DNA of 64,000 nt, taken from the NCBI GenBank assembly GCA_016946835.1, contig JACVTC010000043.1, positions 719,501 to 783,500 on the forward strand, written 5' to 3'. Positions 7,667 to 62,894 of the stretch are shown here, piece after piece; within the stretch, counting starts at the first letter, position 1; each line of letters opens with the position of its first letter. The position numbers were made by a program, and so were the translations under genes. Origin of the DNA: Neocallimastix lanati (nom. inval.) (lineage: Eukaryota; Neocallimastigomycota; Neocallimastigomycetes; Neocallimastigales; Neocallimastigaceae). The notes under the pieces are model-generated. The model saw only the letters and a list, made by a program, of their open reading frames with translations. It did not search any database and was not told the DNA's origin.

Positions 7667-7671
7667 CAAGA

Positions 7672-8145
7672 TGTAAGAAATATAGATAAATTTATTATAA
7701 AATTTATCTATCTTTCTTATTTAATACATTAATTTAATACATTAAATTATTGTATTTATTTTAACCAATAATATTTATTTATTAATTTACATATATTTGA
7801 TTCTCTTGAGTTCTCTAGGAGAAATCAAGAGTTATTATTTTAGAATTTTTATAATAAATAATAATTCAAATAAAATAATTAATTAATAAAACAAAACCCT
7901 TTTAATAAAACATATTTTATAAATATTTGTGTCTTTTATTCCTTTTGTGTTATTGTTTATTATAAACTTTCTATAATAAACTCTATCATATATTTAAGTT
8001 AAGTATAATTATTTATTTATATTATTTTATATTTATTTAATTATATTTAATTTTATTTTCTCAAATTAATGTTAATTAGTAATAATTAATGTTAATTTGT
8101 AGTTAAGAAATTATTTATAATTAATTTTATAAGTAATTTCTTACA
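7672..8145 (+). repeat. Solo LTR-1
   Basis: 474 bp with inverted termini TGTAAGAAAT/ATTTCTTACA, flanked by perfect 5-bp duplications CAAGA (7667-7671, 8146-8150). The TCAAGAGTTATTATT block near 7830 is in plus orientation. It belongs to the B-like LTR group. Confidence 0.85.
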
Positions 8146-8151
8146 CAAGAG

Positions 8152-8270
8152 TGGGACGTAATGCTCTATATTAATTATTTTTATAATATTTTATTTATTT
8201 TTATTTTATTTTATTAATATTATTATTTTTTCCTAAAAATTTATTTTTGTAAAATTTCCTATTTATATAT

Positions 8271-8325
<55 letters not shown>

Positions 8326-10017
8326 TTAATTTAATATTTTTTTATACTATTTGATTATTTTCCTAATTTTTATTTTATAATTTTTATACAATTTAATTGT
8401 TAATATAAATTGAATTAATATATTTTAACTAAATATACCTTAAAAATAATAAACAATATTTATTTTAAATACATATTAAAAATAATTAAAAATATTTATT
8501 TTAAATACATATTATTTAGAAATATTAGTAATTTAAAATTATTTAACTATTTAGTTTATTATTTACATAAATAAAAATACTAACTTTTAATTAAAAATAT
8601 ACTTTAATTTAATAATTTAATTGTTTGTTAAATAAATATCATTATTTATTTACTTATTCATATAAATTAATTAAATATAAATTTAAATAATTTAAATTTT
8701 TTTTTTTTTTTTTTTTTTTTTTGTTAAGATTTTGATATAATTTATAGTTTAAATTTAAATAAAATAATATGGTTTATTAAAAAATATTCACTAAGTCGAT
8801 ATGTCTATATAGTAATATACTATATAGATATATAATAAAAATAATAAATATTTAAAGGTTTAGTTTAATAAAAATTTATTTATAATAAACTTTGATAATT
8901 AGAATTATCAAATTAATTTAATTTTAAATTTATTTATTTTATTTAATAATAAAATATCTATAATATATTACTATTAAGGTAATTTTACAATAACCTTACA
9001 AAGAACATAAAAGATAGATTTTTACATCTTTCTTTTATACTTTGTAAGTTACATAATAATAATATTTAATTATAAGATAGTAATAATATAGTAATATAAA
9101 TAATAATAAAATATAAGGATAAATTTAATTATATAATTAATTTGAATAATTGAATTTAATATAGATATGTTGTAAACATATATAAAAACATAATATAAAT
9201 AAAATACACGTGACGTCAAATGTATCATTGAAATTAATTATTAATATAAACCTTATTTATTAATATTCTCAGGATTATTAGGCCTAAGATAACCCTTTAA
9301 ATATTAAACAAGAATTTATATTAATTATTAATTATTTAAATATATATATATTTTATAATTAAATAAATAATATTTTTAATTATTGAAATGTAAATAACTG
9401 AAATTGAGATTTCAATTCAGTTATAATTTCAACATTTTTTTTTTTAAATTTAAGAAATTCATATTTTTCTGAACGTAACGTTCCAAGAGTGTTGAGGTTC
9501 ATATTAGAAAAGGAGTGTGAACATTAAATAAATAGATAAATTAAATAATTACTAAACTACACTAAAAGAATTTATTATTACACATTATAAATTTTATTTA
9601 AAGAACTATTATTAAAAATATTTATTATTTATAAATTATATAATTATTTTATTGTTAAAAATACTTTATTAATATTAATATTTATTTTCATAACAATATG
9701 GGAAACCTTTCAATTATTATTCCTAATTCATTTTTTTTTTACTATTTCTAATTCTTTTCTTAGAAAGGCCCCCTTCATAAAATAATATGGATAATACATA
9801 TTTTATATTATTTAATTACATTATTAAAACCAATCATATAAATTAATTAATTACATAAATTTAATATTTAAAATAATAAAATATAATTAATATAAAAAAA
9901 ATTATTAATATAGAATATAAGAAAATTATTAATAGTAAAGAATATAATAATATATTTTTATATAATAAATTATTAAAAATTTAATTAAAAATATCATTAT
10001 TATTCTATTCTTTATCA
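8152..10017. repeat. Solo LTR-T, with nested LTR-Y3
   Basis: Runs from TGGGACGTAATG to CTTTATCA, about 1.15 kb after removal of Y3, and is flanked by AGAG (8148-8151 and 10018-10021). Contains poly(T) at 8274-8320. No coding sequence was seen. Orientation is not certain. No paired LTR is in the window, so the boundaries rest on the TG/CA ends and the duplication. Confidence 0.6.
8722..9434 (-). repeat. Solo LTR-Y3 (F-like)
   Basis: 713 bp, TGTTAAG...TTTCAACA, inserted in a T tract so that both flanks read TTTTT. It contains CACGTGACGTCA near 9208-9219 and the long hairpin CTTACAAAG...CTTTGTAAG (about 8995-9049) shared with Y1 and Y2. The hairpin includes a TATAAAAG box on the minus strand. 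Confidence 0.75.
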
Positions 10018-10021
10018 AGAG

Positions 10022-10458
10022 TAATAAATCTTGGTTATAAATAGATTTTTATTTTATTATTTGATTATATAGAAATTGTTTTATATACTTTATAAATATA
10101 TATAAGTATATAAATCTTTATTAATTTATTGATTCATTTATTATTAAAAATTTATTTTATTCAAAAGAGAGAGATTAAAAATATTTTTTTTTAAATTATT
10201 ATTTTTATATTCTAAAATTGGTGTAACAACAATATCCAATCAGTAATAATAATAAAATAATAATTATAATTTTATAATAAAATATTCTTTAGAAATAATA
10301 GTAAAGTATTAAGAATTATTAATAATTTATATATAATACTAATAAAATAATCTATTATTATTTATATCATAAATTTTATAATAAAATTAAAAATATTTTA
10401 TATATATAAATATATATATATTTTTAATAAATAACGTAATTATAGTTATTATTTATCA
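10022..10458 (-). repeat. 3' LTR of element D
   Basis: 437 bp, the partner of 15445-15870. It begins TAATAAATCTTGG and ends TTATTTATCA on the plus strand. Next to it in element sense is the purine-rich stretch AGGGCGAGAAATCT (10459-10472), the likely plus-strand primer. Confidence 0.9.
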
Positions 10459-10509
10459 AGATTTCTCGCCCTAAGATAAAATTTTATCTGAATAATTAAT
10501 ATAAATAAT

Positions 10510-10512
<3 letters not shown>

Positions 10513-10543
<31 letters not shown>
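10513..10543. repeat. Homopolymer T31 (A tract after pol of element D)
   Basis: 31 consecutive T on the plus strand, i.e. an A tract between the pol stop (10560) and the 3' purine tract of element D. Element F has a similar tract at the same place. Confidence 0.95.
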
Positions 10544-10550
<7 letters not shown>

Positions 10551-10559
10551 TTAAAACGA

Positions 10560-13301
10560 TTATATTGAAGCTAAGTAGGGTTTAACATTCTTAACATGGA
10601 CGTTTCTTTCTAGTATTTTGTGAGTATCTATTGTTTCTAAAACAAGTGTGTTAAATTTAGAAGCCTTAATTACTTTAAATGGTCCAATGAAAAATGGATC
10701 TAATTTCTTTCTTCCAATGTAGCGAACTAAAACTAAGTCACCAGGTTTATAGGTATGGTTCATACTATCAACTGCTTTGCTTCTTTGAAGCCAGTAAGAA
10801 TGAGCTTGCTTTATGTTTTCCATGGCTTCTTTTACCCATTTTTGGTGACGAATGAATCTTCTTAAATTATATTCATCATCTGATTCATTTTTATTTTTGG
10901 CAATGTCAGGAATAACAACACTCAATGGCCATAGATCTTTCCTACCATATAGGAGTTCAAAACTACTAAAACCGGTTACGCTAGACCTAGAAGTCCGAAG
11001 TGCCCATAGGGAAGCTGGAATATATTCATCCCAATTTGCTTGATAAAGACAGAGATGTCTTAATATTTTAATGATTTCTCTGTTCCTGTTCTCGACCTGT
11101 CCATTAGCTTCTGGATGGTGAGGAGCAACAAACTGAATCCACGATCCATATAAATCAACCATTGTTTTAGTGACATCCGACGAGAACTGCGTGCCATTAT
11201 CTGTTATTATTAGTTCCGGCACACCATGTCTTGCAAAAACATCTTTAAGAAAGCTAATTACATCTTGACTTTCTATTTTCTTTAAAGGTGATGCCTCTAC
11301 CCATTTAGTAGTGTAATCTACAAGTACGATTAAGTATTGATTTCCTTTATCTGTAATCGGTAGAGGACCTACAATATCAAGGCCTACTCTAACGAATGGT
11401 CTTTCAACAGGAGTGGGAATATTCGAAAGGTTTTTACTTATAGGCTTCGGACGATAACATTGGCAACGTAAGCATGTTTTAACATGCTTATTTACATCGT
11501 TTCTCATGCCTGGCCAGTAGTACGCTTCTTTTAGTCTTTTGAATGTTTTCTCGGCACCTTCATGACCCACAAGATGAGCCTTACGAATTAAAGAGGATTT
11601 AGTAGAATCGTCCTCTATCACTTTTAAAAATTTACCATTTTTGTCTTGAAAAACAAGTTGCCCATTATATAAAGAATAATTATTTTTAACATATTCAATG
11701 ATTTGGGGAGGAGCGAAGGAAGAGGTGTCATCGCTATCGGTAAGGATAGACTTAATAGAACTAATACGCGAAGGTAAACGAGACAGAGCATCTGCAAAAA
11801 CGTTATTTTTACCTTTTTCATAAATTAAATTAACTCTAAACTCATTAAAAATTGAAATCCACCTAAAATGACGGTCTTTGCTGGGAATACTATTATAGAA
11901 AAAACCAACCAAAGGTTTGTGGTCAGTATAAATATTGACTGGAAAAGGAGAAGCGGCTATATATGAACGAAACTTCTTTAAAGCAAAGATAACCGCAATA
12001 CCTTCTTTTTCGGTGACAGAGTAGCGGGTTTCAGCGTCTTTTAAACAACGGCTTACACAATAAATGAGAAATTCTATGTTAGATTCGTCTTGGACTTGTA
12101 ACAAAACAGCACCAACAGCGTAAGAGGATGCATCAGTCCGTATGATCAGTGGGCGGTGTGGATCTGGGTATTTCAAGACCGAATTTGAACAAATGACATT
12201 TTTAAGATTGTTAAAGGCGTCAGTATGGATGTTTGTCCAGTGAAATGGCTTTTTTGGACTAGTAAGTTTATATAAGCAGTTAGAGATACCTGCAAAATTT
12301 GGGATAAACTTCCGGTAATAGCTGATAAGGCCCAGAAAGGAACGAAGTTGAGTGACGTCTTTACTAGTATTCCACGAGGCTATTGCAAGAACTTTAGAGG
12401 CCATAGGCTTAATGCCCTCTCTGGTGAGCATGTGGCCAAGAACTTCAACTGAACCTTTACAGAATGAACACTTTTGTGGCATAAGAATACGATTCATCTC
12501 CCGTTGGAAGGTAGCAGGAGCATTAGTGAGTCCAAATGGCATTACTAAGAAATTGAAATTTCCAAACTTTGTCGTAAATGCCGTTTTTTCAACATCTTTT
12601 GGGTTCATTGGAATTTGATGGAACCCTGAGAATAGATCAATAGCAGAAAAAAACCTAGATCCGTGGACCGATTCCAAAAGTTCATCAATGAAGGGGAGAG
12701 CGTATGCATCTTTTATAGTAATTTGGTTAAGTCGACGGTAGTCGACACACATACGCCATTTACCATTTTTTTTGCGTACAAGTATGACTGGGAACGACCA
12801 AGGTGAATGTGACGGTTCATTTAATCCATGGTTTAATAACTTAATAATTTCATCTTTGAGGGCCTTGGATTGTTCCAGTGAGATTTTGTAGGGTCTTAAT
12901 TTGATCGGTTTTTCATTGGTAAGTTCTATTGTATGTGGTTCAGCTTTAGCAATGGATGCATCATCAATAGAATTTATAAGTACATCTTTATATTTGTCAA
13001 TAAGATTATTAAGTTTTATGTTATCAATATCACTAAGTTCAATACCACCATCAGGAAGTTCAGAATAAGCGGGGAATTCATCTGGATTACTATAAATAGA
13101 GATTCTAAATAATCTATTTGATGTAGTGATATCAGTTGGATGCGCTACGAGTACTGGGTTGGTGTCGGTTTTCATATACAGGGCATCATCGTCTGGATCG
13201 ACGAACAAACGATAATCTTTGTGAACCTGGCGACCTATGATAATATCATAAGAAGGGTCGTCGTCATCCAATATATAGAAGGGGGCATACAAGATTTTCA
13301 A
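10560..13301 (-). pseudogene. pol: Pol of element D: RT (deleted palm), RNase H, integrase
   Basis: 913 codons. RT fingers begin near 12870 (VRKKNGKWRMCVDYRRLN, MPFGLTNAPATFQREMNRIL). Directly after this the frame jumps to KCSFCKGSVEVLGH, so relative to element E about 40 residues including the catalytic YIDD are missing in frame (near 12480); RT should be inactive. RNase H: RTDASSYAVGAVL, TDHKPLVGFF, VFADALSRL. Integrase: HLVGHEGAEKT...CLRCQ zinc region near 11540, then catalytic D (VGLDIVGPL), D (ITDNGTQF) and E (HHPEANGQVENRNRE), then the GPY/F-type tail (FFIGPFKVIKA). The apparent start at 13301 is a TTG produced by a frameshift in a C5 run (13281-13285); the true upstream frame is the protease frame. 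Confidence 0.9.
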
Positions 13302-14511
13302 ATTTTAAGCATAAATTAATAACTTGATTAGTGGAGGTCATATTCTTTCCAGGGACTTTAAAGTAGTTTCTTTCAAGAATGTGGACTTTATGATTTTTAG
13401 CAATTAATTCAAAAAAAGGCTTGTTAATGATGTTTACTTCTGCTCCTGTATCTACTAATACTTTCACGACATGTTTATCAATGGAACCAATCACAGCGGC
13501 GATATTTGCTTTATTTATTAGATTTATTCTTTTTGTGCTAAGGTCGTTTAAACTGGATTCAACTACTTTTTCACTTACAGGAGTAGAACTTTTGTAATCA
13601 GTGTTAATATTTTTAAAAACGTTTATAAGAAAATCGGAGTCATTTTCGTCTAGATTTGTATGGTGAACGGAATTGATTTTTCTAATATCTTTAGGGTTTA
13701 ATTTTAAACCCTTAATGCATAAACGTCTTAATAGAGGACTTACGGCAAATAGCTGAGCAAAGGTTATTCCGGCATTCGAATTGTTTAGGGCTTCAAAGAG
13801 GTCATATTCCTTCTTGTCATCTAACATAAGAATAGTTCTGAGGAAGTCATAATAATTTTTCTTTGTAGCGTTGTCGTTGATTTCCGTGTCTGGAACGTCT
13901 ATTTCAACCTCCTCATTCTTATTAGTAGAATCCAGACCTATTCTTCTCTTATTTCTTTCTTCTTTATTCTTTTTCTTGGCTGAAGAAATATTTTTCCCGG
14001 CAATAACAGAAGTGTCTAAAATTTCTAATTTATTGGAGTTGTTCTTATGAAGAATTTTACCATTTTGGTTCCGTTGATACACTTCTTGATCTGGTTTTTC
14101 TTGTTGAGCTTTCAGTTGAGTAGCTTTGGTATTTATAGGAGTAGCATTTTCCATAAGTCTCTTTTTGGAAAAAGTATATTGTTCATTTTTGTTTATTTTG
14201 TTAGTATCGGAGTGTTTTCGTTTGATACCATATAAAAGATTATTATTATCTTGGATGCTGGTTGAATTTACTAAATCTTCATGTGGGAAATTGTAATTAT
14301 TTGATTTTTCTTCGGATTCGTCTGTAGATGATGTGGTATCAGACTCAGGGGCCTCTGGATAATTATGGTAATGGTTAACTTTGGATTTTTCACCGTGATG
14401 ATATGCAGTTGCCTTATGATTATTATGTTCGTTTTTGTTTCTATATTCAAAAGCGCTATCAATCTTGTTTATACGTCGGGAAGATTGAGAACTTCCCTTT
14501 ATTAATTTAAA
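13264..14511 (-). pseudogene. pol: Protease region of element D Pol, up to the frameshift mutation
   Basis: Entered by -1 frameshifting from gag at 14505-14511 and open to 13264; the first ATG is at 14154. An N-terminal basic, asparagine-rich linker leads to a conserved patch (EALNNSNAGITFAQLFAVSPLLRR), also seen in E, G and H as ITIGQLLNACPKIRSQL. The protease core is VLVDTGAEVNII (about 13440-13475), the only canonical D-T-G-A triad among the CCHC elements here. The frame is thrown off at 13281-13285, where one extra C in a C5 run separates it from the RT frame. I read this as a mutation, not recoding, because no related element changes frame at this point. Confidence 0.85.
14478..14511 (-). 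promoter_or_regulatory. -1 frameshift signal of element D
   Basis: Slippery heptamer T TTA AAT in the gag frame (14505-14511), a 7-nt spacer containing the gag stop TAA, then a perfect 6-bp stem GGGAAG/CTTCCC (14492-14497, 14478-14483) with an 8-nt loop. Pol is open in the -1 frame across this point. Confidence 0.8.
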
Positions 14512-15356
14512 TGTTTTTGATATTGGATTATTGTAGCTATTGCTTTGTTCAGATCGGACATTTCATTAGGGCAAAATCTTTCTTCATGTCCCTTTTCATG
14601 ACATCTATGGCAAACGTGGATCTTCATTTCAGCGAAGCTTTTGGTCAAAGCTTCTAGATCGGATTCTTGAATATCCTTATCTATTTTCTTTCGATCTTTC
14701 TCAACTTTATTGAATTTATCTTCTGATAAGTTATTCTGTTTCCTTCTGTTGAAGCTTCTTCTTTTAGGTATTCTGTTAAATTGTGTACTATCGTATTCAT
14801 CATCGCTTACATAAGGTTCAATAGTTTCTTCGACCTTCAATGCAATATCGTATGCATCTTTTAATGATTTTGGTTGCTTGGTCAGTAGCGCGTTAAAAAC
14901 AGGGGTTCTCTTCTTACAAGCTTTTTTATATAAGAATATCAACCTTTCTTCATTTGGCTTGTCTCTTTCGGATATTTCTAATAATAGTTCTTTAAATATT
15001 TTATTAAACTCTTTAACGGAGTATTTACTAATTTTTAAAGCTTCGAGTTTATGTAAATTAGCGTTAGATATTTTGCTATTACTGAATGGTTCCCCTATTT
15101 TTGAAATAAAATCGGAGAGTGATAGGTCTTTATTTTCGTAATATATATCAATACTACGATCTTTAGTTTTGCCATAGGTAGCTAGTATCACGATTTTCTT
15201 TTTTTCTTTTTCTGAAAGAGATAAATCTTCGAAGATATCTTCTACTTCCATCTTCCACCGAAAGAATTTAGTATCTCTTCTTCCTAGAGCGGCAATTTCT
15301 TTAGCCATGAGAGTGGCTTTTTCATAATCATTTTCTTTTATTTTATTTGAAGACAT
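14502..15356 (-). CDS. gag: Gag of element D
   Basis: About 284 residues from the ATG at 15356 (MSSNKIKEND). An upstream in-frame GTG lies inside the primer site and is not a credible start. Helical, charged capsid-like region through ~residue 210 (FFRWKMEVEDIF, SVKEFNKIFKELLLEISERDKPNEERLIFLYKKAC), basic stretch (RRSFNRRKQN), then one zinc knuckle C-x2-C-x4-H-x4-C (CHRCHEKGHEERFC) near the C-terminus. The gag stop TAA falls in the spacer of the -1 frameshift signal. Leader between the 5' LTR and ATG is only 88 nt, far shorter than in G and H. Confidence 0.88.
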   Translation of the reverse strand: MSSNKIKENDYEKATLMAKEIAALGRRDTKFFRWKMEVEDIFEDLSLSEKEKKKIVILATYGKTKDRSIDIYYENKDLSLSDFISKIGEPFSNSKISNANLHKLEALKISKYSVKEFNKIFKELLLEISERDKPNEERLIFLYKKACKKRTPVFNALLTKQPKSLKDAYDIALKVEETIEPYVSDDEYDSTQFNRIPKRRSFNRRKQNNLSEDKFNKVEKDRKKIDKDIQESDLEALTKSFAEMKIHVCHRCHEKGHEERFCPNEMSDLNKAIATIIQYQKHLN

Positions 15357-15424
15357 AAAATAAAACGGTAGATAATTTAAGAATATGGGGAATTGTGTGT
15401 TATATAAAGTAGGCTTTCCGGGGT

Positions 15425-15442
15425 AAGAGTGGTTCTCCACCA
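15425..15442 (-). promoter_or_regulatory. tRNA-type primer-binding site of element D
   Basis: Two bases inside the 5' LTR the element-sense sequence is TGGTGGAGAACCACTCTT, with the TGG expected for pairing to a tRNA 3' CCA end. The donor tRNA was not identified; it does not match the 3' end of the tRNA-Ile in this window. Confidence 0.7.
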
Positions 15443-15444
15443 CT

Positions 15445-15870
15445 TAATAAATCTTGGTTATAAATAGATTTTTTGATTATATAGAAATTGTTTTATATAC
15501 TTTATAAATATATATAAGTATATAAATCTTTATTAATTTATTGATTCATTTATTATTAAAAATTTATTTTATTCAAAAGAGAGAGATTAAAAATATTTTT
15601 TTTTAAATTATTATTTTTATATTCTAAAATTGGTGTAACAACAATATCCAATCAGTAATAATAATAAAATAATAATTATAATTTTATAATAAAATATTCT
15701 TTAGAAATAATAGTAAAGTATTAAGAATTATTAATAATTTATATATAATACTAATAAAATAATCTATTATTATTTATATCATAAATTTTATAATAAAATT
15801 AAAAATATTTTATATATATAAATATATATATATTTTTAATAAATAACGTAATTATAGTTATTATTTATCA
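15445..15870 (-). repeat. 5' LTR of element D
   Basis: 426 bp, matching 10022-10458 except for an ~11-bp deletion after TATAAATAGATTTTT. Followed by the AGAG duplication (15871-15874). Confidence 0.9.
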
Positions 15871-17075: not shown

Positions 17076-17914
17076 TGTAAATAATTAATTAAAAATATTT
17101 AATTATATTAATAATTAATTCTTTCTACAATTAATAATAAAAAATATTATTAATTGAGATAAAATTAAAAAATATAATATAAAAATTGAAAACGAAAATT
17201 TAAAAACTTAGAGTTTATTATAAGATTATAATAAACAACACTAAAAGTAGGTTAAGAGAATTTTAGAAATTATTTTATTATAAAAATTTTTTATTAAAAG
17301 TAATTTTAAGATATTTGTGTTAATTATTATAATTTATTATAATAATAACTCTTGATTATTTTTAGAAGAATCAAGAGTCCTATTTATATTAATTTGATTT
17401 CTAATCTTGGAAAATTATCTCTATCTAGAAAAAGATTAGAAGAAAAAACTAGATAGATCTCGATTGGTGTTTAATTACATCAATCTTTAGTTAATAAGAA
17501 AACCCGAATAAGGGAGAAAACTTATTAACTAATTATATATTAATTTTATTAATATTTAATCACAAGTATAATTAAATAATTAATTCTTTTAATTATCTTA
17601 ATTAAAAGTCCAAGAAATAATATAATTTAATTATTTCTTGATTAAATAAAATTATCATTTTAATACAATTTAATTTTTCTTAATTAAATAGAATTTAACA
17701 TTATTTTAATACAATAATACATTATTATAATTTAATATATTAATTATTGATAATTTAATTTAATTTAATTTTAAAACAATAACATTAATTAATAATTACT
17801 ATGTGACATAATTAATAAAATTATTCATAAAATTTTATAAAATAATAAACTTTAAATATTAAATTTTTAATAAAGAATAATAATTATTTTGAAAAATAAT
17901 TATAATTCTTTACA
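17076..17914 (-). repeat. Solo LTR-3 (B-like)
   Basis: 839 bp, TGTAAATAAT...TTCTTTACA, flanked by perfect CAAGA duplications (17071-17075, 17915-17919). It has the ATAATAACTCTTGATT block with TATAAATA about 35 nt upstream on the minus strand, as in LTR-2, C1 and C2. Confidence 0.85.
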
Positions 17915-52212: not shown

Positions 52213-52265
<53 letters not shown>

Positions 52266-53170: not shown

Positions 53171-53177
53171 TAAATTA

Positions 53178-54748
53178 TGTTATGGTTCGGGTTTTATTAG
53201 AATTTTTATTTAATTATTTATTTTTAATATTTTTCTGTCTACATTTTAATTATTGAAAAACTTCACTTATTTATACTTTTTGAAAAAAAATAAATATGTA
53301 AAGCCTTTCTACATTTTATTATCATATTTAAAAAAAAATATTTACTATTACTAATTACTTAAAATTTTATATTAATTTAAATTAACTAATTCATAAGTAT
53401 TTTTATTTTAATAAATTTTGTTTACATAATTTTATATTATTTTTCATATACTAAAACTAAATTATTTAATATATACGAAAAGTAACAAACAAAATTTAAA
53501 AAGATTTTACAGAAAAATAAAGTTATTTTAATCAAGAATGTTAATATAATATTCTTATATTTTATATAAAATAAATTTAAAAACTATAATATATTTAATA
53601 TTTATTATTAATCAATTAAGATTTGATTTTATTTGTGGGGAATAAAAATATAAAATAATCAATTTAAAAATAAAATAAAATACTAAAAAGAATACAAGTT
53701 TAATATTGATACAATATAATAATAATATAATAATATATTTGAAAATAAAAATAAAATATTAATATTGATAATAAACACTTTAATAAAATAATAAAATTTA
53801 AGGTTAAATTATAGATATTGATATTAATAATAAAAATATAAAATTATTGATAATATTTTAGAAACTTTTAATAAAAATATAAAAAAAATAAATATATTTA
53901 GAAAATATTTTAGTATAGAAAATATAGTAAAGTAATATTAAGTAAAGAATAATATAATGGATTCTAAAGTATGTTGAAATTATAACTGAATTGAAATCTC
54001 AATTTCAGTTATTTACATTTCAATAGTTAAAAAATATTATTTATTTAATTATAAATAATATATATATTTAAATAATTAATAATTAATATAAATTCTTATT
54101 TAATATTTAAAGAATTATCTTAGGCCTAATAATTCTGAGAATATTAATAAATAAGATTTATATTAATAATTTCAATTATCTACATATGACGTCACATGTA
54201 TTTATATTATGTTTATATATATGTTTACATCATATATATTAACTACTATTTTTAATTATTCAAATTAATTATACAAATTAAATTTATTTAATTATATTAA
54301 ATATTTTAAACATATCGATATTGTTATTATCTTAATATTTTATTAATATTCATATTACTATATTATTAATATCTTATAATTAAATATTATTATTATGTAA
54401 CTTACAAAGTATAAAAGAAAGATGTAAAAATCTATCTTTTATGTTCTTTGTAAGGTTATTGTACTTACAATAATTATATACTAATAATTCAATAAATAAA
54501 TATTTTCATAAATCCTTCAAAGAAATTATTATTTAAAATATTCTTAGATATTAAGTGTTTAAATAACTTAACTATTTATCTTATATTATTTTTATATTAT
54601 TATTAATTAATTATTGTTGGATTATTAATATATAATTCAACATATTAACCTAGTAACGTTATTAATCATAAAACTATTTTATATCTTAATTTTAACAAAG
54701 TAAGTTGAAATTCTAATTAATAATCCATTATATGTTCGTTCTTTACCA
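53178..54748 (-). repeat. 5' LTR of element H, interrupted by LTR-Y1
   Basis: About 840 bp without Y1. TATAAATAAG box on the minus strand at 53266-53275. Near-identical to 44968-45809. Y1 lies in U3, upstream of the TATA box in element sense. Confidence 0.93.
53972..54697 (+). repeat. Solo LTR-Y1 (F-like)
   Basis: 726 bp with perfect AAGTA duplications (53967-53971, 54698-54702), nearly identical to Y2. Contains TGACGTCA near 54187 and the CTTACAAAG/CTTTGTAAG hairpin. Its absence from the 3' LTR of H shows it arrived after H. Confidence 0.92.
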
Positions 54749-54752: not shown

Positions 54753-55071
54753 TGTTAAGGTTTTAGAGAATTAAATAAAAATAAAGTAAGGAAACACAAA
54801 TTTTATTTATTTATTTATTATTTTTATTTATAAATTTATTTGATTTTATTTGATTTTATTTTATTTTATTTGATGATATTTAAAAATTAGTAGCAAAATT
54901 TACAACTATTTATACTTTTTTTCAAGGCATAAAAGTTGTTCTTGCCACTAAATTACATTTTATTTATTTTTTTTTTTTAAAAACTATTAAATTTAAATTG
55001 ATTTTTATAATTAATTATATAAAATTTAATTATAACAATATAAATAAAATACATTTATAATATTAATAAAA

Positions 55072-55120
<49 letters not shown>

Positions 55121-55616
55121 TTATTTATTTAAAAATATCTAAAATATTACTAATAAGAATTTATTTAATTGGCTATAATTTTTATTACAATCTGTTAAAA
55201 TATTCAAATAAAAATAAAAATACTATTCTAATATAAAGGTTTTTAATAAAATAAAATATTTTTCAATATAAAATAAAACATTTCGATATAAAATTTTATA
55301 ATAAAAAGTTAAAATATAATATATAAATTTTTAATTATCAATATATAAAAATATTATTAATATAAATTTTCATTATTAATATAAAAAAAATAAGATTTAT
55401 TATTAATATTGCTAATATAAGTTTTAAATATATAAAAATATTACTATTAATATAAGATTTAATATAAAAATATAAAGTTTAATATAATTTTTGATTTAAT
55501 TTTTGATCTTTGGATTTAAAAATTTATTAAAGTACAAAAATAATAATGTACACATAATGTATTAGAAATAAATCGTAGATTTAATTAAGAATGCATTATT
55601 TAGTACATTCTTATCA
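54753..55616 (-). repeat. 3' LTR of element G2
   Basis: 864 bp, TGTTAAGGTTTTAGAG...TTCTTATCA on the plus strand, with a T tract of ~42 (55075-55118) followed by TTTA repeats. Confidence 0.93.
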
Positions 55617-55634
55617 AGATGCCCCGACGAAGAC

Positions 55635-58600
55635 TCAAGCTTCTCTGTAAGCGGAGTTAAACTTTACTAAATTTTTAAAGTGAACATTCCTATCGAGTTG
55701 CTTTCCAGTCTTCTGATCGATTAGGGTTGCCGTGTTGAATTGAATTTTTAAAATTTTAAATGGTCCATTGTAATATGGTTCTAGCTTAGTGCGGCTAAAG
55801 TTTCTAACAAGAACAAGATCACCAGCCTTTAATTCTTTTCCTTTTTTCATACTTATTTGTTCTTCTCGTCTTGTTGCCCAATACTTGTTAGCATTCTTCA
55901 CATTTTCGCATGCTTCTCTAGTCCATTGATAATGACGAACAAATTTTTCCATTAAGATTTCATCATACGATTTACCTGCATTTTCAATTGTTCTTATGGC
56001 TATATCATAAGGCTGTTGGTCTTCTCTTCCATATACTAATTCAAAACTAGAATGTCCAGTAGCTGTATTTTTGGTAGTTCGAAGTGCCCATAAAGCAGAA
56101 GGTAAAACTTCATCCCAATCTTGATTTTTCCTTCCTAATAAACGGAGTAATTTTCCAATTTCTTTATTTCGATTTTCAGTAAGGCCATTTGATTCAGGGT
56201 GGTAAGTAGCTACAAATTTAACATATACATCATAAAGATCAAGAAAGATTTTAGTCATATCAGAAGTGAATTGGACTCCATTATCAGTAGTAATAACTTG
56301 AGGTACACCATGTCTTGCAAAAACGTTTATTAAAAATTTAATTATATCAGAGGAAGTTATGTTTTCAGTGGGTTCGGCTTCAACCCATTTGGTAAAGTAA
56401 TCAACAGTTACTATAATATATTGATTATTATTTCTTGTTTTTGGTAACGGTCCTATAATATCTAATCCTAAATGCACAAAGGGACCCTCCACTTTAGTTG
56501 GATGGTTTTCGGTTGGTTCTGGATATGGTTGAGGACGATTTAATTGGCATTTTTCACAATTACTAACAATTCTTTTGATATCTTTAATCATATGATTCCA
56601 ATAAAAGTTTTTCTTAAGTCTTTGATATGTTTTGTAATATCCTTCGTGGCCAATATTATGAGCTTCTAAAATTAATTTAAACCTTTCATTTTCGTCCGTT
56701 ATTAATTTTCTATAATTTCCATTGTCGATAAAGTAATCTTCACCATCAATAACAGTAAACTTTTCATTAATAAATTCCTTTATAACCTTAGATAATAATT
56801 CTTCATTATTTCCATTAGTAATTTTTGTTAATAATATCTTTCTCTCTTCCTTACTTTTCATTCTTGAAAGAGCATCAGCTAACACATTCTTTTTGCCTGA
56901 TTCATATTTTATATTAATTCCAAGCATACTAGCGGTTAGACACCATCTTGTTTGCCTTGCATTCAAAGGTTCTTTATTCTTAAATAAACCAACTAATGGT
57001 TTATGATCTGTGTAAATAGTTGTAGGTAATGGATTTCCTTCAATATAAGATTTAAATTTAGTCATACAGTAAAATAAAGCTGTTCCTTCCAAATCTGTGA
57101 TACCATAATTCTTTTCAGTTTTCTTCAAACTTCTACTTATAAAGTGTATTGGATGCTCCTTACCGGTTTCTTCTTCTTTTTGTAAAAGAACTCCACCAAT
57201 TCCATTATACGAAGCATCAGTTCTAATGATAAAAGGTTTGTCAAATGACGGAAATTTTAGAATAGGTGCATTGATTAATTTTTCTTTTAGGAGTTCAAAG
57301 CTTTCTTGTTGTTCTTTATTCCATTCATATTTAGTATTCTTTTTCAATAATTTACATAAAGGTGAGGTAATTTGAGCATATTTAGGGATAAAGTCACGAT
57401 AATACCCTATTGCTCCTAGAAATGATCTTAATTCATGAATTGATGAAGGGGCTTCCCACTTCTTAATAGCTGTTATTTTACTTTCCATGGGACTTAATCC
57501 TTTAGTAGTAAGTTTGTGACCTAATACATCAACTTCAGTTTGAAGAAAATGGCACTTTTCAATATTAATTTTTAACTTGTTTTCTTTAAATACTTCTAAT
57601 ACTTGTTTAATATGAATTAAATGTTCTTCGATACTTTTTGAATAGATCAAAACATCATCAATAAATACATAAACAAATTCACCAATAAAAGGGAATAAAA
57701 TTTTATTCATTTCTCTTTGGAAGGTTGAGGGAGCTCCAGTAAGTCCAAAAGGCATAACCTTAAATTGATAATTTCCAAACTTAGTAGTGAAAGTGGTTAC
57801 TTCAACGCTTTCTTCATCCATTAAGATTTGGTGAAAACCAGAAAATAAATCAAGAGTTGTAAATATTTTAGATCCTCCGAGACTATCAAAAATTTCATCT
57901 ATATATGGAACTGAATAAGAATCTTTTTCTGTCATATCATTGACTTTTCGGTAGTCAATACACAAGCGCCACTTTCCATTGTGTTTTAGAATGAGTACTA
58001 CTGGAGATGACCATTCTGAACAGGATGGTTCTATCAATCCTTTCTTAATAAGCTTTGTAAGTTCTTCTTTTAAGATATCTGATTTTAATTTAGTTAACCT
58101 ATAACTTCTTAATTTTACTGGCTTTGCATTTGCTTTCAAACGGATCTTATGTGGTGAAAGTTTAGAAGGAGTTAGTTCTTCTGTTGAAGTGGCAACTATG
58201 TCAATCATTTCTTTGAGAATTTTAATAATTTGTTCTTTATAATCTTTATTTAAGGTACTTAAAAATTCATCACTCTCAATAAATTCCATTGGAGTTAATT
58301 CCTTTATAATTTCCTTTTCATTATTCGTTTCTTTAACTTTTCTAATAGTGCAAATTATACTTTCTTCATCATAATATTGATTATTTATTTTAGCTATTTC
58401 TTCGTATTCACTTTCTGACAAAAGTTTACATAAACTGTTTAAGGTCGGATGAATAAATAAACAATGATCGATTTGAGTTTTAAAGTTTATTAACATATCA
58501 TAAAATGAGTCTTCTTTCTCAATAATTCTAAAGTCCGCATTAAATTCATAATTATTAATTTTTACTGGTAATTGAACAATAATTCCTTCCGAGTATTCTT

Positions 58601-59645
58601 CATCTTGTGTTGCTAGTTGGATTCTTCCACGACTTTTTCCAACTGTTTCATATTCACCAGGTAATTTATCAAAATACTGCTTAGTAACGATGCTTAGGTT
58701 ACTACAAGAATCAATTAAAAGTTTTCCTAGTACTCCGTCAACACTTGCATCAACCATTGCTAAGTCTTCTTCGGCTACTTCATTACTTTTACTTATGTAG
58801 CTATGATCATAGTTATTCACTAATAAAGTTCGTGCTATTACATTGTCTACAGTTCCAATTATTTTAGATTTTTCTAACTTTAAACCTTGAGTTAATTGTG
58901 AACGAATTTTCGGACATGCATTCAAGAGTTGACCTATCGTAATACTGGATTTAAGATTATTTAAATCATCCATAATATTGTAAGGTTCTTTATTATTCAT
59001 CATTTTGATATTCCTTTTTACTAACTGAGTATTTTCATTATTAGTTTCTTTAGTTTTTGTTGAAATTAATTTTTCCAAAGTATTAGTTTTATTTTGTTGA
59101 TTATCTTTATTCATTTCTATATCTTCTATTTCATTATCGATTACAAGTATATCTTCAGATTCAACTTTTTTCTTTCCTTTTGATGAATAATTGTTGTTTT
59201 CTTCTTTACTTTCTCTTACTCTTGTTATATTTCTTAATTCCTTTTCTTTTTGTTTTTCTTTGTTAATATTTGGTTGAGTTAAAATTGAAGGAAGTATTTG
59301 ATTTTTATAAACTTTATTTGGTTTATTATGTAGCTCATTTTCTTTCTTCTTTCTTAAAGCAGGAGTTGCGAAAGGACGTGGATTATCTTTTAAACTTTTA
59401 TGTACTTTCTTGGAATTATTTTCTTCCTTTTCGCTGTTATTATCATTCATTTTTCTTTTTATAGCATTTATAATGATATTATCCTCACTTTCAGTTGTGT
59501 CACTAAAATCAGATTCTTCAGATTCTTTATTAAAGGAATTATTATCAATTGGGGTATTCTTGGTAAAAGTATTATTTTGTAAATTATTTAATGAAGCTAT
59601 TGTTTTGTCATTGGGAGTGCTTCTGCTCCCATTTAGAAGTTTAAA
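55635..59645 (-). CDS. pol: Pol of element G2: protease, RT, RNase H, integrase
   Basis: First ATG at 59450 gives 1271 residues; the frame is open upstream to the -1 frameshift site. Domain order and motifs: linker KSLKDNPRPFATPALRK; SITIGQLLNACPKIRSQLTQ; protease LLIDSCSNLSIVT (~247, D-S-C); RT with LCIDYRKVNDM, FTTLDLFSGFHQILM, MPFGLTGAPSTFQRE, FIDD (~596-599); RNase H IRTDASYNGIGGVL (~742), TDHKPLVGLF, VLADALSRM; integrase zinc region HNIGHEGYYKTYQRL...CEKCQ, catalytic D (LGLDIIGPLPKTRN), D (TTDNGVQF), E (YHPESNGLTENRNKE); GPY/F-like tail EPYYNGPFKILKIQF. No breaks seen. It differs from G1 at few residues. If expressed, this could supply proteins for G1-type copies. Confidence 0.94.
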   Translation of the reverse strand, partial: FKLLNGSRSTPNDKTIASLNNLQNNTFTKNTPIDNNSFNKESEESDFSDTTESEDNIIINAIKRKMNDNNSEKEENNSKKVHKSLKDNPRPFATPALRKKKENELHNKPNKVYKNQILPSILTQPNINKEKQKEKELRNITRVRESKEENNNYSSKGKKKVESEDILVIDNEIEDIEMNKDNQQNKTNTLEKLISTKTKETNNENTQLVKRNIKMMNNKEPYNIMDDLNNLKSSITIGQLLNACPKIRSQLTQGLKLEKSKIIGTVDNVIARTLLVNNYDHSYISKSNEVAEEDLAMVDASVDGVLGKLLIDSCSNLSIVTKQYFDKLPGEYETVGKSRGRIQLATQDEEYSEGIIVQLPVKINNYEFNADFRIIEKEDSFYDMLINFKTQIDHCLFIHPTLNSLCKLLSESEYEEIAKINNQYYDEESIICTIRKVKETNNEKEIIKELTPMEFIESDEFLSTLNKDYKEQIIKILKEMIDIVATSTEELTPSKLSPHKIRLKANAKPVKLRSYRLTKLKSDILKEELTKLIKKGLIEPSCSEWSSPVVLILKHNGKWRLCIDYRKVNDMTEKDSYSVPYIDEIFDSLGGSKIFTTLDLFSGFHQILMDEESVEVTTFTTKFGNYQFKVMPFGLTGAPSTFQREMNKILFPFIGEFVYVFIDDVLIYSKSIEEHLIHIKQVLEVFKENKLKINIEKCHFLQTEVDVLGHKLTTKGLSPMESKITAIKKWEAPSSIHELRSFLGAIGYYRDFIPKYAQITSPLCKLLKKNTKYEWNKEQQESFELLKEKLINAPILKFPSFDKPFIIRTDASYNGIGGVLLQKEEETGKEHPIHFISRSLKKTEKNYGITDLEGTALFYCMTKFKSYIEGNPLPTTIYTDHKPLVGLFKNKEPLNARQTRWCLTASMLGINIKYESGKKNVLADALSRMKSKEERKILLTKITNGNNEELLSKVIKEFINEKFTVIDGEDYFIDNGNYRKLITDENERFKLILEAHNIGHEGYYKTYQRLKKNFYWNHMIKDIKRIVSNCEKCQLNRPQPYPEPTENHPTKVEGPFVHLGLDIIGPLPKTRNNNQYIIVTVDYFTKWVEAEPTENITSSDIIKFLINVFARHGVPQVITTDNGVQFTSDMTKIFLDLYDVYVKFVATYHPESNGLTENRNKEIGKLLRLLGRKNQDWDEVLPSALWALRTTKNTATGHSSFELVYGREDQQPYDIAIRTIENAGKSYDEILMEKFVRHYQWTREACENVKNANKYWATRREEQISMKKGKELKAGDLVLVRNFSRTKLEPYYNGPFKILKIQFNTATLIDQKTGKQLDRNVHFKNLVKFNSAYREA
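59612..59645 (-). promoter_or_regulatory. -1 frameshift signal of element G2
   Basis: T TTA AAC at 59639-59645, spacer of 7 nt with the gag stop, stem TGGGAG/CTCCCA (59626-59631, 59612-59617), 8-nt loop CAGAAGCA. Identical to G1. Confidence 0.88.
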
Positions 59646-60538
59646 GACTTTTTGGAATATATTTCTTTTTTATTTTTTTCCATAATCTTATTTAATTGAG
59701 GGCAATAGTATGAGTAATGACCTTCTTCCTTACAGAAGAAGCAAGTTTTAACAGATAAATTTCTCATTTTCTGGGTTGATTCTTCTATAATATCTTGAGG
59801 TTTCAGTTTATTATTTGTTTGACTTGTTTGGAAAGTTTCGTTTCTTCTTTTAGGATAAAGTCTTGAAGTAGTACTGTTTTGATTATTTTGATTATGCTGG
59901 GAATTATTAACATTATAGGTATTAATATTATTGTTCCTTACAGAAAGTCTATCTACTTTCTCGGCAATTTTGAAAGCTTTCTCCATACTTATATCATCTT
60001 TAAGGGATAATTTCTTCCAGGCTTCATAATTATTTTGAATAGAGTCAATATAATCTAGTACACCAATGCGCTTTCTTCTCTTTTTATCAAGTTTAGTGTA
60101 CAAAGTTCTATATCTTACATTAAAGTCTTTAATCTTTTCGTTTCTTTTAATTCGCATTGCACGAAGTTCTTTAAGAAGTAAATTTTGGTCTTCTTTAATA
60201 CCGTAAAAATTTTCAAGACTTGAAATAATTTTTTCAAGAGAAGGAAATTTATCATCATCAACATTTTCTTCTTCATCATCTTCTTCTTCATCTGATGAAT
60301 CATCACTTTCATCATCACTATCTTCTCCCAAATCTTCAATAACGCGTTGTACTTCACCAGAGCTGGTAAGTAAACAAGCATTAAATATTGTTTCCGGATC
60401 TGTGATACCTTGTATCTTGATCCAAAGTTTTAATTCAGTAGCCCAGGACTTTATATCTAAATTGTCCTTGCTAAGCTTCACTATGTCTCGTAATTCTTTC
60501 TTTAATTCTTTAAAACTTAAAGTACTTTTAGTAGACAT
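59633..60538 (-). CDS. gag: Gag of element G2
   Basis: 301 residues from ATG 60538 (MSTKSTLSFKELKKELRDI). Same layout as G1 Gag: capsid-like part, acidic tract (SDDESDDSSDEEEDDEEENVDDD), basic helical part (MRIKRNEKIKDFNVRYRTLY), Asn/Gln linker, zinc knuckle CFFCKEEGHYSYYC. It differs from G1 by the first few residues, one Asp fewer in the acidic tract and a short NIN insertion in the Asn-rich linker, typical slippage changes. Confidence 0.93.
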   Translation of the reverse strand: MSTKSTLSFKELKKELRDIVKLSKDNLDIKSWATELKLWIKIQGITDPETIFNACLLTSSGEVQRVIEDLGEDSDDESDDSSDEEEDDEEENVDDDKFPSLEKIISSLENFYGIKEDQNLLLKELRAMRIKRNEKIKDFNVRYRTLYTKLDKKRRKRIGVLDYIDSIQNNYEAWKKLSLKDDISMEKAFKIAEKVDRLSVRNNNINTYNVNNSQHNQNNQNSTTSRLYPKRRNETFQTSQTNNKLKPQDIIEESTQKMRNLSVKTCFFCKEEGHYSYYCPQLNKIMEKNKKEIYSKKSLNF

Positions 60539-61900
60539 TTCGTTTTTAGTTAATAATTTTTTTATTGTAAATTAACGAGGTTATTAAATACGAATAAATT
60601 TGAAAGTCCAACTTTAAAAATATAATTTAACAAGTAATTTAATATCGAATCAAATTTTAAAACAATATATCTTAGTAATTTTTGAAAATAATAATTTTAT
60701 TTGCTTTCTTTAGTAAGTATAAGCTCGAAATCCTTATCGACAACTTAGTAGAAATTATAAAGCACGAGGTTCTTTTCGACTACTTTTTTAAGAATAATTT
60801 TAAGTTCGAAATCTTTATCGACAACTTAATAGAATAATTTTAAGTTCGAAATCTTTATCGACAACTTAATAGAATATTTTTCAAGCTCGAAATCTTTATC
60901 GACCACTTGAATTTTGTAATTTAGTATATTTGTAGTAATAAATTTAGAAGCAAAGTTTTATTTATTATTTTCACCTTTCAAAAATTTTTCTTTTTAAACG
61001 ATAAATATTGTATTGTTATAGCTAATAAAATTATTAATTAATTATAATTATTAAATACAAAAAAATAATCTTTATTGTCGTACAATCTGATAGTACACAC
61101 TGTCTGACGTGCAGCTTACCTAATGGTGTCATGCCACGCGTGTGCCACGATTACTATATTCAATATAAAATATAGCAGTTCAGAGCCCACTAGCCCAATT
61201 ACTATGTAGGATAAACTTAATCCGATAATCTATGTACGGAATAAAAAAATTTTAAAAGTATTCAATAATATTTTTATTAACTAATAAAAATTAACTAAAA
61301 ACACAATATTTTCAAAGTAAATTAAGATTCTTTTACAGGAATTATTAAACAAATAAAGTATCAGTAATAAAAAAAAAATAAAAAAAATTTAAATGGCGAA
61401 GTTAGCCAAAGTCTGATACTTTATATAATAAAGTGCCTTATAACTAGCACAAAGAAAAGTAAAAAAATATATATAAAAAAAACAATCTTACGCCTTCGGT
61501 GACGTAAGCTCCTTATTCGCCAGTGCTTGGAAAGTACCCGCACCTTCGTGTGTTGAAACGTTGAAGGCTGAACTATTATTACCGGGTCGGTAACCAAATA
61601 CCTTCGTCTACTTTCCAATTAATCTCCAAATTAACTACTATTCAATAACCTACTATGAATAGAGTTAATTTGTTGCTATCTGAGAATACACTGTGTATGA
61701 GCTCTATCCGCTCCTTGTTATAATTTTACAAAATTTGTTTTTTTAGAATCTTAATTTTATTTATTTAAAAAAAATTTTTTATATATATATCAAACAAGCG
61801 CCATAGGTTAATCAAAGGATTAACGACTTACTTGTTTATCAATATAAAATAAAAAAAAATTAAAAAAAATCTATGTTATTTACTATTATCTCTATTTAAT
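60539..61900 (-). other. Structured 5' leader of element G2
   Basis: About 1.36 kb, homologous to the G1 leader, with no ATG frame of note. Contains the hairpin array (60721-60908), the conserved block (61079-61245) and the 61490-61620 island matching 28190-28320. Confidence 0.75.
60721..60908 (-). repeat. Tandem hairpin array in the G2 leader
   Basis: Three full units with TCGATAAAGATTTCGA (element sense) plus two degenerate ones, against five full units in G1. Outer stem AAGT/ACTT (or GCTT) and inner stem TCGA/TCGA are kept. Confidence 0.85.
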
Positions 61901-61918
61901 TCCCCAATATCTCCACCA
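61901..61918 (-). promoter_or_regulatory. tRNA-type primer-binding site of element G2
   Basis: Element-sense TGGTGGAGATATTGGGGA, six bases inside the LTR; one transition from the G1/H site. Confidence 0.7.
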
Positions 61919-61924
61919 TATAAA

Positions 61925-62243
61925 TGTTAAGGTTTTAGAGAATTAAATAAAAATAAAGTAAGGAAACACAAATTTTATTTATTTATTTATTATTTTTATT
62001 TATAAATTTATTTGATTTTATTTGATTTTATTTTATTTTATTTGATGATATTTAAAAATTAGTAGCAAAATTTACAACTATTTATACTTTTTTTCAAGGC
62101 ATAAAAGTTGTTCTTGCCACTAAATTACATTTTATTTATTTTTTTTTTTTAAAAACTATTAAATTTAAATTGATTTTTATAATTAATTATATAAAATTTA
62201 ATTATAACAATATAAATAAAATACATTTATAATATTAATAAAA

Positions 62244-62290
<47 letters not shown>

Positions 62291-62786
62291 TTATTTATTT
62301 AAAAATATCTAAAATATTACTAATAAGAATTTATTTAATTGGCTATAATTTTTATTACAATCTGTTAAAATATTCAAATAAAAATAAAAATACTATTCTA
62401 ATATAAAGGTTTTTAATAAAATAAAATATTTTTCAATATAAAATAAAACATTTCGATATAAAATTTTATAATAAAAAGTTAAAATATAATATATAAATTT
62501 TTAATTATCAATATATAAAAATATTATTAATATAAATTTTCATTATTAATATAAAAAAAATAAGATTTATTATTAATATTGCTAATATAAGTTTTAAATA
62601 TATAAAAATATTACTATTAATATAAGATTTAATATAAAAATATAAAGTTTAATATAATTTTTGATTTAATTTTTGATCTTTGGATTTAAAAATTTATTAA
62701 AGTACAAAAATAATAATGTACACATAATGTATTAGAAATAAATCGTAGATTTAATTAAGAATGCATTATTTAGTACATTCTTATCA
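61925..62786 (-). repeat. 5' LTR of element G2
   Basis: 862 bp, nearly identical to 54753-55616, including the T tract (62246-62288) with the same TTTATTTATTTA ending. TATAAATAG box on the minus strand at 62078-62086. Confidence 0.93.
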
Positions 62787-62801
62787 AAGAGATGTATAGG
62801 A

Positions 62802-62894
62802 GCTCCTGTAGCCTAGAGGTTTAAGGCGTCGTGCTTATAAGGGTGTTCCTCTTATGCAACGCGAAGATCGCGGGTTCGACCCCCGCCAGGAGCA
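62802..62894 (+). tRNA. tRNA-Ile (anticodon UAU) with 19-nt intron
   Basis: Perfect 7-bp acceptor stem GCTCCTG/CAGGAGC (62802-62808, 62887-62893), D-arm GCCT...AGGC, anticodon stem TCGTG/CGCGA (one G-T pair), T-arm GCGGG-TTCGACC-CCCGC, discriminator A. The loop CTTATA|A places anticodon TAT at 62836-62838. The canonical intron after position 37 spans 62840-62858; its CTTAT segment can pair with ATAAG of the anticodon region, as in eukaryotic pre-tRNAs. The Pol III A box (TAGCCTAGAGG) and B box (GGTTCGACCCC) are internal. The mature length is 74 nt before CCA addition. This is the only gene in the window not belonging to a mobile element, and the likely integration target of the neighbouring stack. 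Confidence 0.95.

Follow-up and report, generated by a model that had tools for sequence, protein, structure and literature searches.

Introduction

Targeting of genes transcribed by RNA polymerase III (Pol III) by long terminal repeat (LTR) retrotransposons has been described in ascomycete yeasts and dictyostelids, where it is explained as damage avoidance in compact genomes. This and the following background is taken from excerpts of the literature cited. Here we analyzed a tRNA gene and the LTR retrotransposons upstream of it in a 64,000-nucleotide stretch of DNA (positions 719501-783500 of its contig, in an assembly of 199 Mb and 762 contigs), referred to below as the window. The integrase of Saccharomyces cerevisiae Ty3 contacts the TFIIIB subunits TBP and Brf1; it cuts at -6/-2 relative to the transcription start site and generates a 5-bp duplication; the position of TFIIIB is given as -15 to -32 (PMC8632968). 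Ty3 carries a chromodomain and uses a site near the gene (PMC8632968), and this near site is also used by Tj1, Yarrowia elements and DGLT-A (PMC5911963, PMC5006619, PMC4600332). The transcription start site is taken here to be about 10 bp upstream of the tRNA (PMC5911963). When a tRNA gene is hit again, the new element is located between the gene and the earlier element, hiding the original distance of the earlier one (PMC5006619). Among the titles and abstract openings listed, none reports LTR elements that target tRNA genes in anaerobic fungi, an LTR element at -66 or element queues resolved by their duplications.

The tRNA gene at the end of the window has, as its 5' flank, a queue of LTR retrotransposon units, at least 17 in number and belonging to about 14 LTR families. 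The queue was very probably built by repeated insertion at the Pol III start machinery, each unit landing between the tRNA gene and its predecessor. As in Ty3, the polymerases (pol) are of the Ty3/gypsy type, the insertions are about 15 bp upstream of the mature tRNA and the targets are Pol III genes at large (PMC8632968, PMC5006619). With a start site about 10 bp upstream of the tRNA, this position, site 1, is the same place as that of Ty3. The 5-bp duplication of Ty3 is shared, but only by a group comprising families J, H, K, C and M. Unlike Ty3, about 14 families are found in one genome, together with a lineage making 4-bp duplications, deep queues and a second group of elements at -66 to -68, counted from the tRNA. 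The targets include repeats with A and B boxes that have no Rfam match, and the host probably lies outside the ascomycetes.

DGLT-A of Dictyostelium is also a Ty3/gypsy LTR element located upstream of tRNA genes, at 13-33 bp (PMC5911963). Unlike here, neither a base-resolved queue nor a second LTR-element site is described for it in these excerpts. A second, farther upstream position is known from Dictyostelium TRE5, at 40-54 bp from the mature tRNA (PMC5911963). TRE5 is a non-LTR element, whereas families C and M, at -66 to -68, have LTRs and an integrase. Tj1 of Schizosaccharomyces japonicus is likewise an LTR element that inserts immediately upstream of Pol III genes, those for tRNAs included (PMC4600332). 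Unlike the elements here, Tj1 is a single family, tested in S. pombe, and inserts 1-10 bp from the start site (PMC5911963); no far site is described in the excerpts.

Results

Boundary words in the queue are target-site duplications

Units were delimited by self-comparison of the window and reading of the junctions, and families by pairwise comparison of LTRs. From far to near the tRNA gene, the order is U0, K, L1, L2, F, G, H, E, I, J1, J2, A1, A2, D, N, B and A3. Two LTRs are kept by six elements (F, E, A1, B, A3 and the nested C). Of the others, U0 extends beyond the window and A2 consists of a partial LTR; the remaining units are solo LTRs. The J1 LTR is 77% like that of J2, and short matches of 66-73% link K, H and J. 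A first-pass annotation of the window had proposed at least ten families at this target. We count about 14 at the tRNA-adjacent site, and the nested families C and M come on top of these. The last LTR ends at 62786, 15 bp before the first base of the tRNA at 62802, exactly the spacing given in that annotation. As to its assignment to tRNA-Ile, ARAGORN finds a tRNA gene, but one run gave no isotype and another gave 'Ala(tgc), intron'; Ile(UAU) with an intron is a reading of the sequence and not a tool result.

The annotation had also reported the same short word at every boundary. All the words are present where it placed them, and related words are found at every readable boundary. They do not form a single motif, however, as nine spacer forms occur (CAAGA, CAAGAG, AGAG, AGA, AGAGA, GA, TCAGA, TCAGAG and AAGA). 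The boundaries listed are real, but an AGAG boundary at 9486-9489, which splits 8152-10017 into two LTRs, had been missed. Several units had to be redrawn: 37625-44963 is a solo LTR, N, holding a C element; a solo LTR of M is nested within 35872-37620 and another within 44968-54748; and 27003-35867 consists of two copies of one family in opposite orientation, fused in a 1.6-kb near-palindrome.

The boundary words are 4- or 5-bp target-site duplications (TSDs) of one site at -15 to -11, not a motif. Other stacks in the genome have spacer words of their own (GAAT, CAGT, CTGT, AAAT and CATA), and a word that differs between stacks is a duplication of the target. In the samples, (C)AAGAG is particular to this stack, a point on which the first-pass annotation had made its proposal depend. 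Paired flanks of family A carry 4-bp duplications such as TTAA, TTCA, AAAA, ACAA, TCAC and GAGA; one pair (L045/L046) is mismatched by one base, CTGT versus TTGT.

At junctions with shared bases, the order of insertion can be read from the duplications. Starting from CAAGAGATGTATAGGA, a replay of 16 successive insertions, in which every unit enters between the tRNA gene and the unit before it, gives 15 of the 15 readable spacers and the final flank. It used duplications of 4 bp for A, B, D, E, F, G, I, L1, L2 and N, and of 5 bp for K, H, J1 and J2; the junction between A1 and A2, lost in the near-palindrome, was left out of the count. The right copy of the H duplication, CAAGA, includes the last CA of G, and that of J1, TCAGA, includes the last TCA of I. 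Because the right copies borrow these bases from the predecessor, the left spacers of H and J1 are only 3 and 2 bp. G and I were therefore there first, and the queue grows toward the tRNA gene. The proposed leftward displacement of older units is borne out by these duplications, since they include terminal bases of the left-hand neighbor.

Insertion upstream of other tRNA genes

The genome was sampled: flanks of tRNA genes came from all 40 listed places of the window's tRNA type, from the top matches to a tRNA model, from B-box places and from family-A loci, which supplied four. The B-box pattern had 1,344 matches in the genome, versus 102 for the reversed pattern; 60 of the 100 listed places were sampled, and canonical tRNAs were taken from these. 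Exclusion of duplicates, flanks shorter than 100 bases, 16 unassigned tRNA-like repeats and Arg genes following an Asn gene left 88 distinct flanks. A set of 83 was obtained by removing the window itself and the four loci found via a family-A LTR.

A repeat boundary at -13 to -18 is present in 61 of the 88 flanks, a CA end at -14 to -18 in 58, and both in 49. Among the 83 flanks not chosen for LTRs, 44 have both signs, versus 0-1 in eight control windows. Both signs are also found at 10 of the 11 canonical tRNAs of the B-box sample and, for Ile genes alone, at 16/35. At least one sign is present at Ile (29/36), Arg (15/18), Thr (6/12), Asn (9/10), and Val, Gly, Ala and Glu genes combined (11/11), and at 0/1 Cys genes. 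Other tRNA genes thus show a strong enrichment of LTR ends in their 5' flanks (at about -14 to -18), an excess on which the first-pass annotation had also staked its proposal, and most of the other tRNA genes examined have a retrotransposon ending about 16 bases upstream.

The families of the window take part in this pattern. In a scan of the flanks with family-end words (up to 5 mismatches in 24), ends of U0, K, L2, H, J, E, I, A, D, N and B were found at -14 to -19 of other tRNA genes. The right LTR of U0 is 98.6% identical to an LTR ending at -16 of a tRNA-Arg (L028).

Two arrangements of tRNA genes were seen in the sample. At 10 of the 30 tRNA-model loci (L009-L012, L014-L016, L023, L026 and L027), tRNA-Asn and tRNA-Arg are in tandem, a few bases apart. 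Most of these tandems have an LTR-like end upstream of the Asn gene, which suggests one Pol III promoter per pair. On contig C555, at about 170-399 kb, 34 of the 63 listed tRNA-model matches are on one strand, some about 540 bp apart.

Targets of individual families

The outer LTR ends of three families were followed from the LTR side. Family A has 41 listed places, of which 40 were examined (30 loci and 10 stretches); removal of 15 internal LTR ends left 25 outer ends. Five of these face a tRNA, 14 an A/B-box repeat and five another LTR across a short spacer, and one fits nothing. For families E and J, 20 of 40 leading places were used, from which three and two internal ends were removed. The 17 outer ends of E comprise five at 15-16 bp from a tRNA, 11 followed by an LTR start after 3-5 bp and one unplaced. 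Of 18 for J, 15 are followed by an LTR-like start after 3-7 bp and three are not. Automatic sorting had misplaced nine A/B-box repeats, L041 and L074 (as 'other') and L077 (as 'LTR'); after re-sorting by eye L074 alone stays 'other'. L211 was tallied as 'other', though its start resembles that of L2. Some counted ends share one flank (L044/L049, L051/L066, L165/L166 and L192/L194), and the independent events are slightly fewer.

The A/B-box repeats have promoter spacings similar to those of tRNAs. From the LTR end to the A-box word GGTWA there are 29-34 bases, and to the B box 63-69, compared with 30-32 and 64-67 in true tRNAs. An Rfam search of 14 loci with such target repeats gave no match at E up to 1, and we therefore call them repeats and not tRNAs. 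Given the tRNA-like spacing in loci without an Rfam match, the elements appear to recognize the geometry of a Pol III promoter rather than tRNA identity. Several kinds of these repeats serve as landing sites (L042, L044, L052, L070, L077 and L078), and it is possible that they are tRNA-derived short interspersed elements (SINEs).

A second site used by families C and M

Families C and M use a second site, site 2, located 51 bp further upstream than site 1. With queries taken from the ends of two units, the matches at most of the listed places covered only roughly the first 250 of the 300 bases. This pattern revealed the nested elements, namely C inside N, and M inside both B and D; L1 likewise contains an inverted M-type LTR. 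Each of the four nested insertions in the window has its boundary exactly 51 bp inside that end of the host LTR which faces the tRNA gene. Duplications of 5 bp accompany three of them: AGAAT for C, AAGTA for M in B and AGTAA for M in D.

The tRNA flanks, selected without regard to C or M, were scanned for ends of the two families with at most 2 mismatches and the CA required. All eight ends found are at -66 to -68, four at -66, two at -67 and two at -68, instead of the Ty3-like -15, and C and M are accordingly not classed as -15 targeters. Shuffled words gave 1.19 matches per scan anywhere and 0.03 in -65 to -69. At up to 3 mismatches, two weak matches are added, at -5 and -9; the reversed-word control was unfit (32 matches). 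Three tRNA genes, L242 (Ile), L012 (Asn) and L034 (Thr), have a C or M end at -66 to -68 without any sign of site 1. The distance is therefore set from the tRNA and not from the LTR.

Outer ends in the genome were counted for both families from 20 of 40 leading places each. For C, six internal ends and one different place (L158) were removed, leaving 13. Four of these have an LTR start 54-56 bp on, three a B-box-like word at 114-119, three abut M and three fit nothing. For M, removal of nine internal ends left 11, with an LTR end or junction at 51 in six and no fit in five. C and M abut directly across 5-8 bp at L143, L150 and L155, and the far site may thus build a queue of its own.

Polymerases and integrases

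The LTRs have TG..CA ends and are flanked by TSDs; F starts with TA instead of TG. The order reverse transcriptase (RT), RNase H and integrase is found by Pfam in A, B, C, M, F and E, in E across two frames, and a J piece spans RNase H and integrase only. All pols examined are of the Ty3/gypsy type. Among solved structures, Ty3 is the best match for six of them (A, B, C, F, the J piece and M). The match of C and M is one stretch from RT through integrase, and the best stretch of A and B covers RT and RNase H.

The integrases form two lineages, only 22-26% alike between them. Those of A, B, E and F are 46-75% alike, make 4-bp duplications and use site 1; at E 0.001 they have no match to SH3_Tf2-1. 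The integrases of J, C and M are 38-69% alike, make 5-bp duplications and have SH3_Tf2-1. Across all families, the duplication sizes are those used in the replay, with C and M added to the 5-bp group. The integrase of J, a site-1 family, ends 12 residues past the conserved motif at the SH3 end, whereas those of C and M, at site 2, extend 83 and 82 residues past it. The tail of C is predicted to form strands and a helix, similar to a chromodomain. A profile comparison of the C and M tails with chromodomain tails gave a weak match (E 0.0048, probability 7.3%; reversed control E 0.23). The structure comparison covers the integrase core and the SH3 part and is silent on these tails.

TA in place of TG or CA is found at some LTR termini (window position 10022, L224, L232, L235 and L241). 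Both LTRs of F agree on TA, which is therefore inherited there. The TA terminus at L232 looks like CpA-to-TpA decay, a pattern that we take to be RIP-like.

Discussion

Probable repeated insertion at one tRNA gene

Serial, Ty3-like use of one target, as the first-pass annotation had put it, is supported, with four amendments: the duplications are of 4 and 5 bp, a second site used by other families lies 51 bp further upstream, A/B-box repeats are also targets, and LTR divergence shows no gradient of age. By analogy with Ty3, the integrases likely dock on TFIIIB and cut at the same few bases each time. Every insertion would duplicate 4 or 5 bp and leave the tRNA-side copy of the target intact. 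The next element would land between the tRNA gene and its predecessor, and older units would shift away, as the duplications suggest. With the A and B boxes and the tRNA-side duplication intact, the target would be renewed after each insertion.

Several observations weigh against this reading. The duplication sizes in the replay were picked to fit, and its fit alone is therefore no proof. No gradient of age is seen from far to near (F 0/426, E 3/681, A1 3/827, B 2/808 and A3 0/862 substitutions between paired LTRs); with 0-3 substitutions per pair, ordering by LTR divergence was dropped. The flanks are not a random sample, as 36/88 belong to one tRNA type, and 18/88, including six of the 12 tRNA-Thr, have neither sign of site 1. 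Single signs are not rare in the controls, at 2-14/88 for the boundary and 2-14/88 for CA. Three of four U0 and three of eight H word matches lie outside -14 to -19, and ends of F, G and L1 were not found at any other sampled tRNA with 24-base words and at most 5 mismatches. A dispersed tRNA-like repeat (L080-L138, 16 copies, starting GCCATGTTGGTCCAGTCGG) has a B box and apparent 5'-truncated copies. It serves as an internal negative control: an LTR end was seen by eye in 1/16 copies, which indicates that a B box alone is not enough. At L134, low-complexity matches also end near -18. At site 2, 3/13 C and 5/11 M outer ends fit nothing, and 3/10 of the fitting C ends merely abut M.

Alternative explanations

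The related words at every readable boundary of the stack could mean that a DNA word such as (C)AAGAG is what the elements recognize and that the tRNA gene is next to the stack by chance. The other stacks have words from GAAT to CATA, however, and the family-A duplications are unrelated to each other. What stays constant is distance, 29-34 bases from LTR end to GGTWA and 63-69 to the B box. Within the sample, the varying duplications refute targeting of a word, and we give it practically no credence. Random insertion followed by survival of only those copies just upstream of tRNA genes, through selection or rearrangement, would agree with the view, in the excerpts of PMC5911963, that tRNA flanks are safe sites. 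Survival would not yield near single-base positions (-66 to -68; 51 bp in 4/4) or 15/15 spacers, and insertions elsewhere are few in the LTR-centred samples (A 1/25, E 1/17 and J 3/18). We regard this explanation as extremely unlikely.

The queue could also have arisen by recombination or segmental duplication of a few stacks. Copying and rearrangement do happen, as indicated by the near-palindrome of A1 and A2 and by identical flanks at L221/L223, L224/L225, L237/L255 and L257/L258. Yet the units own their duplications, different families alternate, and the same families are found at other tRNAs with other flanking bases, making this origin very unlikely. For site 2, most copies in stacks sit within LTRs, as expected if C and M target a feature 51 bp inside other LTRs and do not measure from Pol III genes. 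This is contradicted by L242, L012 and L034, where C or M ends at -66 to -68 without a sign of site 1, and by the three C ends with a B-box-like word at 114-119, as -66 predicts. The four host LTRs in the window also belong to different families. An LTR feature as the target is thus very unlikely.

A possible basis for two distances

Under repeated insertion at the Pol III start machinery, site-1 integrases may dock as Ty3 does, and site-2 integrases could act from the other side of TFIIIB. The midpoint of the two sites is about -39 from the tRNA, or about -29 from a start site taken 10 bp upstream. This is inside the reported yeast TFIIIB region (-15 to -32), so that TFIIIB would lie between the sites. 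We tentatively propose a model, plausible but short of being favored, in which the two groups bracket TFIIIB. One would cut at the start-site side (-15 to -11) and the other at the far side (about -66 to -62), with the midpoint on the TBP region. Within the lineage of J, C and M, which contains both behaviors, the extra C-terminal integrase module of C and M would go with the far site as if it were a ruler. Every Pol III promoter, including those of SINE-like A/B-box repeats, would be an inexhaustible landing pad. Ty3, however, uses site 1 despite its chromodomain, indicating that the module alone cannot dictate the far site. If the model is correct, such landing pads would let about 14 families expand this 199-Mb genome, leaving a base-resolved queue as a log of insertions.

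Host and significance

The host is likely an anaerobic gut fungus of the early-diverging Neocallimastigomycota. All 150 scored matches to PF02013, which we take to be the fungal dockerin, were above the cut-off (1,440 candidates), and 0/14 control genomes, all prokaryotes, had any. The nearest named relatives of the pol of family A, the tRNA-proximal family, are Orpsp1 proteins, a label that presumably denotes an Orpinomyces-type anaerobic fungus. GC content in the window is very low, as is typical of this group, at 10-38% per 2-kb bin.

Pol III targeting is thus the rule for the families sampled in the 199-Mb genome of what is likely an early-diverging fungus. It is common to two integrase lineages, about 14 families and two positions 51 bp apart. 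The open question of what sets the distance from a Pol III start can therefore be approached by comparison within one genome. Since duplications can borrow bases of the predecessor, queues can give the order of insertion without a molecular clock. Both groups likely find genes via the Pol III start machinery, and the locus would then record legibly which element inserted at what point.

Features of the window

Table 1. Units and sites in the window, from the tRNA gene outward; positions are those of the window.
Feature	Positions	Strand	Description	Source
tRNA gene	62802..62894	+	With intron, anchor of the stack; Ile-UAU by reading; at least 40 places of the same tRNA in the genome	ARAGORN
Spacer	62787..62801	+	15 bp, AAGAGATGTATAGGA; TSD AAGA at 62787-62790, then GATGTATAGGA up to the tRNA	
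A3	54753..62786	-	tRNA-proximal full-length Ty3/gypsy-type element, family A; LTRs with 0 substitutions/862	
B	44968..54748	-	Full-length; left LTR 44968-45809; right LTR 53178-54748, split by M	
M in B	53972..54697	+	Solo LTR; TSD AAGTA; 51 bp before B end (site 2)	
N	37625..44963		Solo LTR (37625-38552 and last 51 bp to 44963), split by C	
C in N	38553..44912	-	Full-length; TSD AGAAT; 51 bp before N end (site 2)	Pfam
D	35872..37620		Solo LTR, split by M	
M in D	36834..37569	+	Solo LTR; TSD AGTAA; 51 bp before D end (site 2)	
A1+A2	27003..35867		Full family-A element (27003 to about 35060, pol on +) fused to an opposite partial A LTR (to 35867)	
J2	26139..26996		Solo LTR; 5-bp TSD TCAGA	
J1	25135..26133		Solo LTR; 5-bp TSD TCAGA, its TCA being the end of I	
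I	24367..25132		Solo LTR; TSD GAGA	
E	17921..24361	-	Two LTRs (3 substitutions/681); TSD AGAG	
H	17076..17914		Solo LTR; 5-bp TSD CAAGA, its CA being the end of G	
G	15875..17072		Solo LTR; TSD AGAG	
F	10022..15870	-	Two LTRs (0 substitutions/426); TSD AGAG	
L2	9490..10017		Solo LTR; TSD AGAG	
L1	8152..9485		Solo LTR with an inverted M-type LTR inside, right end 9434, 51 bp before L1 end (site 2)	
K	7672..8145		Solo LTR; 5-bp TSD CAAGA	
U0	1..7666	-	Oldest unit in the window, runs off the edge; right LTR 6760-7664	

The near-palindrome of A1 and A2 spans 34247-35873 (1.6 kb, 97%); opposite family-A LTRs meet in it, and their junction is deleted. Another inverted pair of family A is found at L039, with the spacer GAAT between the copies. 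A 21-bp tandem repeat at 21176-21637 lies within the pol region of E. The inner part of U0 (154-6448) is mixed: 154-1396 resembles the group of A, B and E, while the RT of U0 is 67-68% identical to those of C and M. RNase H is followed in frame by a weak zinc knuckle. U0 is possibly two elements.

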